Below, piece after piece: positions 3,415-6,152 of a DNA stretch of 64,000 nt. Source of the DNA: a virus; the IMG/VR virus record IMGVR_UViG_3300023178_000017, positions 1 through 64,000 of that record. One strand, 5' to 3'. A model generated the notes under the pieces. It saw only the letters and a list, made by a program, of their open reading frames with translations, was not told the DNA's origin and ran no database searches. Position numbers and translations under genes: made by a program. How positions within the stretch are numbered: position 1 is the first letter of the stretch; each line of letters opens with the position of its first letter.

Positions 3415-3889
3415 TTCCACCATCAGGATCTTGTGCGAAGTTTCCTGTTCCTACTGGTATGGTGATCTCTGTGGTTGTACCATCTTCTGCTACAACAATC
3501 AGTCTGATAAACTCAGCACCTGTTTCATCTGTGATAACTTCCCATGTAATGGTGTTACCTTCTAATACAAATGAACCGAAACCTGCTGGGTTATCATTTG
3601 CGAACATAGACTCTACTAATTGCTTAGCAAATTGAGCGTAGATTCTACTTTCTAAGTTACGTATAAATTTTGCTAGGGTTGAATTTTCTGCCTCTCTTTC
3701 AGCTGCCTTTCTGGCCGATTCAAGTGCATCTTCAATTGCCTTTTTTCTTGAGAACTCTTGGTTTTCAATGGTCAGATAGTGTGCGCCTGTGCCGACACCA
3801 CTAAAGGATGGATTTTTAAATCCAAATTTAATCTCGTCTGCTAAAACTGGTAGTGATAGTAGACTAAGAACTAGAACTCTTTTTATCAT
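3404..3889 (-). CDS. csgF: CsgF-like curli assembly factor
   Basis: 161 aa with a signal peptide (MIKRVLVLSLLSLPVLA). The mature protein starts DEIKFGFKNPSFSG, matching the conserved CsgF N-terminus (F-x-F-x-N-P-x-F-G-G) that plugs into the CsgG channel. A helical neck follows (KKAIEDALESARKAAEREAE), then a beta-rich C-terminal domain with TTEITIPVGTGNF. It ends in Gly/Asn and overlaps the CsgG start. In bacteria CsgF sits at the cell surface and couples the nucleator to CsgG. Gene order CsgF then CsgG is as expected for a functional pair. Confidence 0.85.
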   Translation of the reverse strand: MIKRVLVLSLLSLPVLADEIKFGFKNPSFSGVGTGAHYLTIENQEFSRKKAIEDALESARKAAEREAENSTLAKFIRNLESRIYAQFAKQLVESMFANDNPAGFGSFVLEGNTITWEVITDETGAEFIRLIVVAEDGTTTEITIPVGTGNFAQDPDGGNGG

Positions 3890-4154
3890 TGGTTTTTACC
3901 TTGCCCTTTTTCTTCTCGTTTTCTCTATACTCTAAAACTACATCAACCTTTTGTTGTAGTCGTATAAGGTCTTGGTCTAACATTCTAGTTTGGTCTATTA
4001 CTCTTATCAATGCAAAATGCATCTTTTCAATTTCGGGCTCTATGTGTTCACCAATGAACCACCACACATAGTAAATAAAGTAACCTAGACCAATTGCTAG
4101 TATAATAGGAAATCCGTACTCTTGGACTTTTGAGATAATGTCAAATTCTTCCAT
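3864..4154 (-). CDS. small membrane protein, YvrJ/holin-like, paralogue of the next gene upstream
   Basis: 96 aa. MEEFDIISKVQEYGFPIILAIGLGYFIYYVWWFIGE forms one N-terminal membrane span; the rest is a charged coiled-coil-like helix (LIRVIDQTRMLDQDLIRLQQKVDVVLEYREN) with a Lys/Ser-rich tail. The start is TAATG-coupled to the upstream paralogue, and the end overlaps CsgF by 26 nt. The 'YGFPIxLAI' opening resembles YvrJ-type and BhlA/UviB-type small membrane proteins. It may be a holin or an inner-membrane partner of the CsgG/F exporter; sequence alone does not decide. Confidence 0.65.
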   Translation of the reverse strand: MEEFDIISKVQEYGFPIILAIGLGYFIYYVWWFIGEHIEPEIEKMHFALIRVIDQTRMLDQDLIRLQQKVDVVLEYRENEKKKGKVKTNDKKSSSS

Positions 4155-4447
4155 TAATCTCTTCTCACATCCAATTTACCGTCTTCGATAAAGTTCTCTG
4201 CACGAGCAACTCTCTCAATATCAGGTCGAAGTTCCAATGCTGACGATACTAACATGTCTATCTTAATCATTTCATTAGACATGGTTCTTGCACGATTCTC
4301 TAGTGACTTACAGAACATAGTAAGCGTCTGAATGTCATCAACTATACCTTGAAGTATTTGTTTAATGATAATGAATATAAAACTTCCCATAACTAAGGCG
4401 ATAGCTACAGGGAAGCCCAACTCAGTTATCATTTCGAATACATCCAT
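4154..4447 (-). CDS. small membrane protein, YvrJ/holin-like
   Basis: 97 aa from the ATG at 4447 (a longer in-frame start exists at 4483, but it lies inside the promoter and riboswitch). MDVFEMITELGFPVAIALVMGSFIFIIIKQIL makes one membrane helix; a helical cytoplasmic or periplasmic tail follows. It shares its plan and the 'LGFPVAIAL' opening with the downstream gene at 3864-4154, so the two are probably an ancient duplication. It opens the curli-like operon, 9 nt behind a TATAAATA late box. Confidence 0.65.
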   Translation of the reverse strand: MDVFEMITELGFPVAIALVMGSFIFIIIKQILQGIVDDIQTLTMFCKSLENRARTMSNEMIKIDMLVSSALELRPDIERVARAENFIEDGKLDVRRD

Positions 4448-4455
4448 TATACTCT

Positions 4456-4469
4456 TATTTATATAAATA
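4456..4469. promoter_or_regulatory. palindromic bidirectional T4-type late promoter
   Basis: The 14-bp perfect palindrome TATTTATATAAATA contains TATAAATA, the T4 late -10 box, on both strands: 4462-4469 on plus and 4463-4456 on minus. The minus copy would start the curli-like operon within a few nt of its ATG (4447). The plus copy would start transcription around 4475, exactly at the first riboswitch aptamer. A gp55-type late sigma factor is encoded at 16917-17468. Confidence 0.65.
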
Positions 4470-4475
4470 AAGGTA

Positions 4476-4526
4476 TCGTTCAACCCTTTTTCTAGGGTCG
4501 GAAGTAGTCATAAGACGAAGGAACGC
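4476..4526 (+). promoter_or_regulatory. glutamine riboswitch aptamer 1 (glnA-type)
   Basis: The sequence follows the glnA RNA consensus: CGTTCA at 4477-4482, a small CCC/GGG hairpin, CGGAAGTAG, and GAAGGAACGC closing the P1 stem (CGTTC 4477-4481 with GAACG 4521-4525). This class binds L-glutamine and is known from cyanobacteria and marine phages and metagenomes. It is the first of two tandem copies directly after a late promoter. Confidence 0.85.
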
Positions 4527-4532
4527 ATTGTT

Positions 4533-4581
4533 ACGTTCATCTATTTTTAGACGGAAGTAGGCAATGGTGCTGAAGGAACGC
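4533..4581 (+). promoter_or_regulatory. glutamine riboswitch aptamer 2 (glnA-type)
   Basis: A second, independent match: CGTTCATC, a short hairpin, GACGGAAGTAGG, then CTGAAGGAACGC. P1 is CGTTC 4534-4538 with GAACG 4576-4580. It is closer to the consensus than copy 1. Two aptamers in series usually sharpen the response. Its last base touches a hairpin that covers the ribosome-binding site of the downstream peptide gene. Confidence 0.88.
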
Positions 4582-4598
4582 AATCTTTTCGGAGATTG
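4581..4598 (+). promoter_or_regulatory. RBS-sequestering hairpin, likely riboswitch expression platform
   Basis: CAATCT (4581-4586) pairs with AGATTG (4593-4598), loop TTTCGG. The stem includes the second half of GGAG (4591-4594), the only good Shine-Dalgarno before the ATG at 4601. It starts at the last base of aptamer 2, which suggests translational control by glutamine. The direction of control cannot be read from sequence. Confidence 0.5.
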
Positions 4599-4600
4599 AC

Positions 4601-4753
4601 ATGACTAAATATCAAGCAATGCTCTTTCAAAGAGCAGTCAAAAAATCTCTTAGGGAAAAACATCTAAGCTCTAGGGCTAAGAATTATAAAATTGAAAAGA
4701 AGGAATCTGTAGAATTACCAAAGTATATTACAGATAACCCTTTTTATCCTTAA
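4601..4753 (+). CDS. 50-aa basic peptide under glutamine-riboswitch control
   Basis: A 50-aa ORF beginning MTKYQAMLFQRAVKKSLREK, continuing with HLSSRAKNYKIEKKESVELP and ending in ITDNPFYP. It is strongly basic in the first two thirds. A GGAG motif lies 6 nt before the ATG, two glutamine aptamers lie upstream, and a terminator follows 8 nt after the stop. Small ORFs behind this riboswitch class are known ('downstream peptide'), and in cyanobacteria a glutamine riboswitch controls the glutamine-synthetase inactivating factor IF17. Small size, basicity and an L-x-S-R-A motif are reminiscent of such factors. That link is my inference, not a homology result. It is one of only two plus-strand genes here. 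Confidence 0.75.
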   Translation: MTKYQAMLFQRAVKKSLREKHLSSRAKNYKIEKKESVELPKYITDNPFYP

Positions 4754-4756
4754 GAT

Positions 4757-4793
4757 AAAAAAAAGGGGACGTTATGTCCCCTTTGTTATTTTT
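4757..4793. terminator. bidirectional rho-independent terminator
   Basis: AAAGGGGAC (4762-4770) pairs with GTCCCCTTT (4776-4784) around a 5-nt loop. On minus it is followed by eight T; on plus by TTTGTTATTTTT. It ends the plus-strand peptide transcript and the minus-strand transcript from 4803-5084. Confidence 0.85.
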
Positions 4794-5359: not shown

Positions 5360-5767
5360 TTAGTTGTTTATATTACCAATTGAATACTTAGTTGTAAGTT
5401 TCCAATCTGATTTTTCTTTATATGATACTACCTTTATTTGAGATAAAGGCGACTTAGGTTCTGATATTTTAGATGGATCATTAACCTTCAATAAGTTCCA
5501 TTGTTGTAAAAGATCAATGATTGTGTTTCTTCTACCAATGTCTGACTCATCAATATTGGTTTGTTTACCGTCTAGTAAAAATAGTTCTTTAAAGTGTACG
5601 ATATAATACTTGCCTTTTTTATGAAGAATGTGACATGATTGAAATAACTCTTTGTCTTTCCTCGAAGCTACGCCTATACGTGATAAGGTTTCTCTTATCT
5701 TTAAAAAATCGTCTTTTTCGGGGAATGTTATTTCGATTAAGTCTTTTACTATATCGTGTTCATCCAT
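5360..5767 (-). CDS. regA: RegA translational repressor
   Basis: 135 aa from the ATG at 5767. It matches T4 RegA across its length: LIEITFPEKDDFLKIRETLSR, KDKELFQSCHILHKKGKYYI, VHFKELFLLDGKQ and a C-terminal SDWKLTTKYSIGN. RegA binds early mRNAs at their ribosome-binding sites and represses translation. It has about nine extra N-terminal residues compared with T4. The start overlaps the gp62 stop, keeping the T4 order 45-44-62-regA. Confidence 0.93.
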   Translation of the reverse strand: MDEHDIVKDLIEITFPEKDDFLKIRETLSRIGVASRKDKELFQSCHILHKKGKYYIVHFKELFLLDGKQTNIDESDIGRRNTIIDLLQQWNLLKVNDPSKISEPKSPLSQIKVVSYKEKSDWKLTTKYSIGNINN

Positions 5768-6152
5768 TATTCTTACCACCAGTTTTCATACTCTCTTTCA
5801 AGTCACGGTATTGTTTATCGTCTAATAACTCTAAATACTCTTTCGCTATTTTAGTTGATACACCATAAGATTCTCTTACAGTGTCTATTTTTTTAGATTC
5901 ATATGGCTTCTGCCACTTGCTGAACCTTTTTCTTTTTCTAAGAGTATTTATTAAAAAAGAGTATTGAAGACGACTGTCCAGACTGTGCCGGACATTCATT
6001 TCGTTGACGAAAAAGAGCGAATCTTGGTGATAAGATAATGCTCGATTTACTAGGAATGGTTGATAAGACTTCTCTTCTACCTCATCAACCATGATATCGA
6101 CTTTGTCAAAACTGACATTTTTAACATAGTCGAATGGATTTCTTTTGGACAT
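5760..6152 (-). CDS. 62: gp62 clamp-loader small subunit
   Basis: 130 aa starting MSKRNPFDYVKNVSFDKVD, the opening typical of T4-like gp62, and located between gp44 and regA as in T4. It is shorter than T4 gp62 but usual for marine T4-like phages. With gp44 it loads the gp45 sliding clamp. The start is TAATG-coupled to the upstream gene. Confidence 0.8.
   Translation of the reverse strand: MSKRNPFDYVKNVSFDKVDIMVDEVEEKSYQPFLVNRALSYHQDSLFFVNEMNVRHSLDSRLQYSFLINTLRKRKRFSKWQKPYESKKIDTVRESYGVSTKIAKEYLELLDDKQYRDLKESMKTGGKNNG

Follow-up and report, generated by a model that had tools for sequence, protein, structure and literature searches.

What could a marine T4-like phage gain from two glutamine riboswitches in series, placed in front of a gene for a peptide of only 50 amino acids? 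The question is raised by a region near the start of the window, that is, the stretch of 64,000 nucleotides analysed here, which was taken from a virus record of 105,279 bases (IMGVR_UViG_3300023178_000017). The region is intergenic on the plus strand and is flanked by minus-strand genes near 4450 and 4802. A minus-strand open reading frame (ORF) at 4154-4483 overlaps the leader only by way of a TTG start; since an internal ATG near 4450 suits this ORF better, the unit occupies the intergenic gap. Its parts are as follows.

4462-4469, plus strand: T4-type late box TATAAATA, read from the sequence
4475-4529, plus strand: glutamine aptamer 1 (RF01739), cmscan 66.3 bits, E 1.7e-12, full model
4521-4538, plus strand: candidate alternative hairpin linking both aptamers, proposed from an inverted repeat
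4532-4584, plus strand: glutamine aptamer 2 (RF01739), cmscan 56.8 bits, E 7.4e-10, full model
4581-4598, plus strand: hairpin CAATCTT-TTCG-GAGATTG that sequesters the Shine-Dalgarno sequence (SD), pair probability 0.94, covariation in viral leaders
4591-4594, plus strand: SD GGAG, inside the SD-sequestering hairpin
4601-4753, plus strand: ORF for a basic peptide of 50 amino acids, family 'NPFYP', under purifying selection and with SAR86 chromosomal relatives
4762-4784, plus strand: intrinsic terminator stem-loop of 10 pairs with a loop of 3, then GTTATTTTTA

Next to the unit, two adjacent small minus-strand proteins (3864-4154 and 4154-4450) both match phrog_18771, as a tandem duplication in which a membrane segment can be made out by eye.

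Both aptamers lie above the curated gathering cut-off of RF01739 (35 bits, cmscan) and are the sole matches to this family within the whole record. The original prediction, made from the letters alone, had named two Rfam families, of which RF01739 is present twice while RF01704 (Downstream-peptide, type 2) has no cmscan match in the window. The tandem glutamine aptamers are thus borne out, and the parts said to accompany them in a single plus-strand unit, namely a hairpin over the ribosome-binding site, a late promoter, a small basic ORF, and a terminator, were all found. The terminator closes a monocistronic unit.

From their family membership, the aptamers are predicted to bind glutamine. 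Tandem aptamers are present in 12 of the 13 distinct phage loci that encode the peptide, the remaining locus having a single aptamer, and tandem glnA RNAs as such were already described by Weinberg et al. in 2010 (PMC2864571). A spacing of a few nt between the aptamers is maintained across tandem leaders. The 3' strand of aptamer 1 P1 (GAACG) and the 5' strand of aptamer 2 P1 (CGTTC) make up the candidate alternative hairpin, which reaches -3.5 kcal/mol alone and has a low probability within the whole leader. Another pairing, between TAGTCA of aptamer 1 and TGACTA at the start, is kept in tandem leaders and is also part of the predicted free-state fold; it shows no covariation in these leaders and is mentioned as an idea only.

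The late box of the window ends 7 nt before the CGTT of the aptamer, as in a T4-like late unit. Of the 13 phage loci of the same peptide family (family A, NPFYP), 12 have the late box NATAAATA no more than 70 nt upstream, where shuffles would give 0.8, and the commonest gap between box and aptamer CGTT is 6-7 nt; at other loci the box was found in 33 of 100, with 6.2 expected. T4 late transcripts begin a few bases past the late box. Therefore, the transcript should begin with the aptamer, and transcription is expected to start near 4475, at the 5' edge of aptamer 1. It appears, from the identity of the aptamers and of the promoter, that glutamine would be sensed late in infection.

The record encodes T4-like portal, major capsid, SbcCD-type nuclease, and DNA helicase proteins, as well as a RegA-type translation repressor (5360-5779). 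The major capsid protein is 66% identical to that of Melnitz, 65% to that of HTVC008M, and 63% to that of Mosig, and the portal protein is about 55% identical to those of Melnitz and Mosig. A gene for curli CsgG, which is a mark of pelagimyophages (PMC7029224), is common to the window phage, HTVC008M, and Melnitz, with 49% identity to both. By these sequences, the phage belongs with the T4-like group of HTVC008M, Melnitz, and Mosig. The hosts of these nearest isolates are OM43 (Melnitz) and SAR11 (HTVC008M and Mosig), and tetranucleotides did not separate SAR86 and SAR11 as host candidates.

Searches of IMG/VR returned 13 distinct phage versions of the peptide, whose sequence in the window is MTKYQAMLFQRAVKKSLREKHLSSRAKNYKIEKKESVELPKYITDNPFYP, and the ORF is thus conserved among related phages. 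Lack of such conservation, or of covariance-model matches to the aptamers, had been named beforehand as a refutation of the original prediction, and neither was observed. The C-terminal motif P-x-Y-I-x-x-N-P-[FYW]-Y is kept in the phage versions with ten residues invariant, the tail being LPKYITDNPFYP or near it in most of them; the SAR86 version has YV in place of YI. Codons of the tail differ mostly at synonymous positions, changes in length are multiples of three, and pairwise dN/dS of about 0.05-0.25 (e.g. dN 0.056 with dS 0.49, and 0.035 with 0.195) indicates purifying selection. The predicted structure is a single long helix with a short turn (mean pLDDT 76.5, pTM 0.38), a fold so simple that a search with it would be of little use. 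PHROGs, Pfam, and NCBIfam hold no family for the window peptide, a PDB profile search gave chance matches only and no relative of solved structure, tblastn with the peptide gave chance Salmonella matches only, and the DNA of the cassette had no match among annotated phages. Since the aptamers exceed curated thresholds, since the peptide, the tandem aptamers, the hairpin, and the late box recur in independent contigs, and since the peptide is under selection, a chance origin is excluded and the tandem-riboswitch peptide unit is confirmed as real.

Between the aptamers and the ORF stands the hairpin over the SD, which forms without ligand in the free RNA at the probability listed above and ends 2 nt before the ATG at 4601. 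Its 5' arm begins at the first base past aptamer 2 P1, and the hairpin usually stops 2 nt before the ATG. In 91 unique viral leaders the two arms covary, with a mean helix of 4.59 pairs, whereas 500 trials with shuffled 5' arms averaged 3.43 pairs (sd 0.12) and none exceeded 3.78; the third pair over all leaders is CG in 65, TA in 12, TG in 8, and AT in 6. The same layout after P1 (CGCCTC...GAGGCG) is found in cyanobacterial leaders of DUF4278 and of short genes resembling inactivating factors of glutamine synthetase (GS), and it precedes gltB, the gene for the large subunit of glutamate synthase, in two SAR86 contigs. Leaders of glnA, glnII, and amt in the sampled bacteria have no such hairpin, and their start codon mostly lies 76-94 nt past the aptamer. 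For the cyanobacterial gifB class and for type 2 leaders, activation by glutamine is reported in a 2018 review (PMC6316151, citing Klahn et al. 2018), and activation of gltB by glutamine is to be expected, because glutamate synthase consumes glutamine. Since the hairpin layout is shared with this cyanobacterial class and with the SAR86 gltB leaders, glutamine probably acts as the ON signal for translation of the peptide.

The pattern is not confined to the window. Riboswitch scans were carried out on samples of 120 stretches each from viral and bacterial collections. The viral sample contained at least 115 distinct riboswitch loci and at least 104 distinct peptides, almost all loci preceding an ORF of roughly 26-80 codons. 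The sampled peptides have a median charge of +7 and a pI of 10.2, and 103 of the 104 carry +3 or more, whereas the charges of 18 small annotated proteins, taken from related phages as a control, lie around 0. At one exceptional viral locus, the riboswitch is followed about 114 nt later by a protein of 319 amino acids, which is of the ATP-pyrophosphatase/asparagine-synthase type by eye. Several peptide families recur in bacteria: the GTSGY family on a Pelagibacteraceae contig of 263 kb that also bears housekeeping genes, short W/YC peptides in two proteobacterial assemblies, and DUF4278-like YRG peptides, a viral family, in SAR86. A single peptide superfamily is not claimed, as the E values between families (0.13 for A and short-W, 0.14 for GTSGY and short-W) are not significant. 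At five SAR86 loci (L305 and L314-L317), a divergent glutamine-type aptamer whose 3' half carries a long insertion, scoring 26.9 bits and so below the cut-off, precedes YRG-repeat DUF4278-like peptides.

Glutamine riboswitches have been reported in the phages Melnitz, Mosig, and AG-345-P14, and the one in Melnitz was assigned to tmRNA, with lysis timing as a speculated role (PMC9004378). In Melnitz (MZ577097.1, 46398-46446), an unannotated ORF for a basic peptide of 32 amino acids, MTLYQQWCYLKAQKEYRRRQKILMYFRIRLKG, begins 26 nt past the riboswitch and has an SD hairpin of the usual kind; it is a stronger candidate target than the tmRNA, which lies upstream and overlaps. In Mosig (MT647606.1, 92197-92250), the riboswitch precedes a hypothetical protein of 51 amino acids, Mosig_00116, of the DPRLQ peptide type.

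Among bacteria, a 2018 review considered glutamine riboswitches to be restricted to cyanobacteria (PMC6316151). In the sampled marine heterotrophs, including SAR11-like, SAR116, and SAR86 bacteria (L257, L288, L296, L307, L325, L342, and others), they occur as well: tandem riboswitches lie before glnA, ammonium transporters, and the gene of a circularly permuted ATP-grasp protein, and single or tandem ones before glnII. In ten sampled bacterial genomes with a riboswitch-peptide locus, every above-threshold glutamine riboswitch is upstream of a peptide. The inspected riboswitches of 14 other bacterial genomes precede GS, amt, circularly permuted ATP-grasp, Gcw_chp, or unrelated large ORFs, and none of those inspected precedes a peptide. 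In one SAR86 MAG (G058), both arrangements are seen: one riboswitch belongs to glnA, and another lies before a small ORF that is cut by the contig end. It appears as if the riboswitch-peptide and the riboswitch-GS/amt arrangements replace each other. Aptamers were also seen before glutamate synthase genes in SAR86 (L280, L271) and in a gammaproteobacterial MAG (L181), where the large-subunit leader is of the SD-hairpin type and the small-subunit leader is different.

The peptide family of the window is itself chromosomal in bacteria. In an aptamer scan of bacterial genomes, the NPFYP peptide with its tandem riboswitch was found on the chromosome in 5 of 35 genomes of one SAR86 group, and the five copies each adjoin the same oxidoreductase gene; on one contig of 73.8 kb (L264), the peptide locus lies near ilvB, ilvH, and ilvC. 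A late box is absent upstream of all the SAR86 copies. The SAR86 leader shares 61 identical nt with that of one phage locus (L085) and 58 with that of another (L006), and therefore gene exchange is indicated. The window's own leader has only identical runs of 13-15 nt in common with the SAR86 leader, its aptamers being more diverged. Since the SAR86 copies sit in a chromosomal context, the bacterium is the likelier source of the cassette, and what the phage has placed behind a late promoter of its own seems to be a copied nitrogen-control peptide of the host. A tandem-riboswitch layout of similar appearance was seen in three more genomes of SAR86 or gammaproteobacteria (L178, L249, L250), before peptides that end in KKD-x-FFPYYL and are possibly distant NPFYP relatives.

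The favoured scheme, to which we assign a probability of about one half, describes the unit as a late-expressed, translationally controlled phage gene that derives from, or shares its source with, a host nitrogen-control cassette, acts as an ON switch, and makes a peptide that restrains nitrogen assimilation. With plentiful glutamine, the bound aptamers would block formation of the SD hairpin and the peptide would be translated; two aptamers in series may make the response to glutamine steeper. The peptide, consisting of a basic N-terminal helix and a fixed C-terminal tail, would bind a component of host nitrogen assimilation and restrain it, the most plausible putative target being glutamine synthetase or its control proteins. 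There would then be two routes to the same feedback, either to repress GS and amt directly or to induce a peptide that restrains them, and the copy under the late promoter may keep the host's glutamine feedback running once the phage has taken over transcription.

Other readings of the unit have to be weighed. If the ORF were a leader peptide or an untranslated spacer, only the RNA would matter, and the ORF is indeed short and has no homologue of known function; yet the low dN/dS, the synonymous variation beneath a fixed C-terminal motif, and the length changes in multiples of three speak against it. The unit, moreover, ends at a terminator directly 3' of the ORF and is followed by a gene of the opposite strand, which leaves a leader peptide no gene to regulate, so this reading is barely credible. 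It is easier to imagine, though still unlikely, that the switch works in the opposite direction: the glutamine-bound P1 would stack on the SD hairpin and shut off translation, the peptide would be made when glutamine is scarce, and it would ease nitrogen limitation during phage production. The hairpin begins right after P1, which makes coaxial stacking possible and would allow P1 formation to stabilise the hairpin, and the SD is occluded in the free-state ensemble, which alone gives no direction. However, the same platform is found in cyanobacterial leaders of the class reported to be glutamine-activated (PMC6316151), as well as before SAR86 gltB, where activation is the sensible direction.

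The action of the peptide may also lie outside nitrogen assimilation. Glutamine would then only signal the stage of infection or the nutrient state, for example for the timing of lysis or of late translation, and the peptide, being basic, would bind nucleic acid, ribosome, polymerase, or membrane. That phages place so many basic peptide families, unrelated by appearance, under this one switch, together with the late promoter, the lysis timing speculated for Melnitz (PMC9004378), and the basic helix, which suits binding to nucleic acid or membrane, makes this a possibility to be taken seriously, although a rather doubtful one: the NPFYP, GTSGY, short-W, and DUF4278-like families are also found under the same switch on the chromosomes of bacteria, in cells without a lysis programme, and in bacteria of the same kinds the riboswitch otherwise serves GS, amt, and glutamate synthase. 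A narrower proposal regards the peptide as a direct homologue or mimic of the cyanobacterial GS inactivating factors IF7/IF17, with which it has the type of switch, the hairpin layout, and a similar size and charge in common. This is improbable, since hhalign of four riboswitch-linked cyanobacterial short inactivating-factor-like proteins against the peptide family gave a probability of 0.1 and an E value of 0.48, the inactivating-factor core motif (ARxLM...R.QSMLxRA) is not shared by the family, and Pfam PF14105 (DUF4278 / IF17 N-terminal) matches neither the window peptide nor its SAR86 relative. The original interpretation is partly supported, with action on glutamine synthetase as a hypothesis, and it is extended in that the peptide is of a host type present on SAR86 chromosomes and that cassettes of this sort are widespread in marine phages. 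Restraint of nitrogen assimilation is still the best guess for the role of the peptide, because the peptide and GS/amt arrangements look interchangeable and because there is a cyanobacterial precedent.

More tentatively, marine phages of several lineages may each carry, controlled by a glutamine ON riboswitch and often with a late promoter of their own, a small basic peptide copied from the host that inhibits nitrogen assimilation, and the peptides may represent a large unrecognised class of metabolic regulators in SAR86, SAR11, and other streamlined marine bacteria. If so, this class would be functionally parallel to the cyanobacterial GS inactivating factors, yet unrelated to them. Glutamine riboswitches of phages were previously without a convincing target, and most of the sampled viral ones control tiny, basic, conserved peptides; as several such families are bacterial-chromosomal too, a concrete and testable role is at hand, and the target proposed for the Melnitz riboswitch is corrected. 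The NPFYP peptide with a tandem riboswitch on SAR86 chromosomes, the riboswitch-peptide pattern in the sampled viral contigs, and glnA, glnII, and amt as riboswitch targets in other marine heterotrophs are new. An overlooked small-protein layer of nitrogen control is thereby indicated in SAR86 and SAR11, which are abundant in the ocean and have few known regulators, and it is suggested that, late in infection, part of the host metabolism is maintained by phages and not simply boosted.

Among known systems, the cyanobacterial gifB/DUF4278 genes and the picocyanobacterial type 2 (RF01704) genes likewise have (PMC6316151) a glutamine aptamer and an SD hairpin before a small protein of the nitrogen system; the window differs from them in having no RF01704 match and a peptide that is neither DUF4278 nor a relative of the inactivating factors. 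The related Kyanoviridae phages Melnitz and Mosig have RF01739 as the window does, and the curli gene is common to Melnitz too; however, their aptamers are single and their peptides belong to other families. The SAR86 chromosomal locus has the same peptide family, tandem leader, and SD hairpin as the phage unit, and differs in that no late box lies upstream. Finally, both window aptamers fit the full model of the type 1 glutamine riboswitch (glnA RNA, RF01739), for which tandem copies are known, but whereas that riboswitch serves nitrogen genes of the cell, the one in the window governs a tiny peptide behind a late promoter of the phage.
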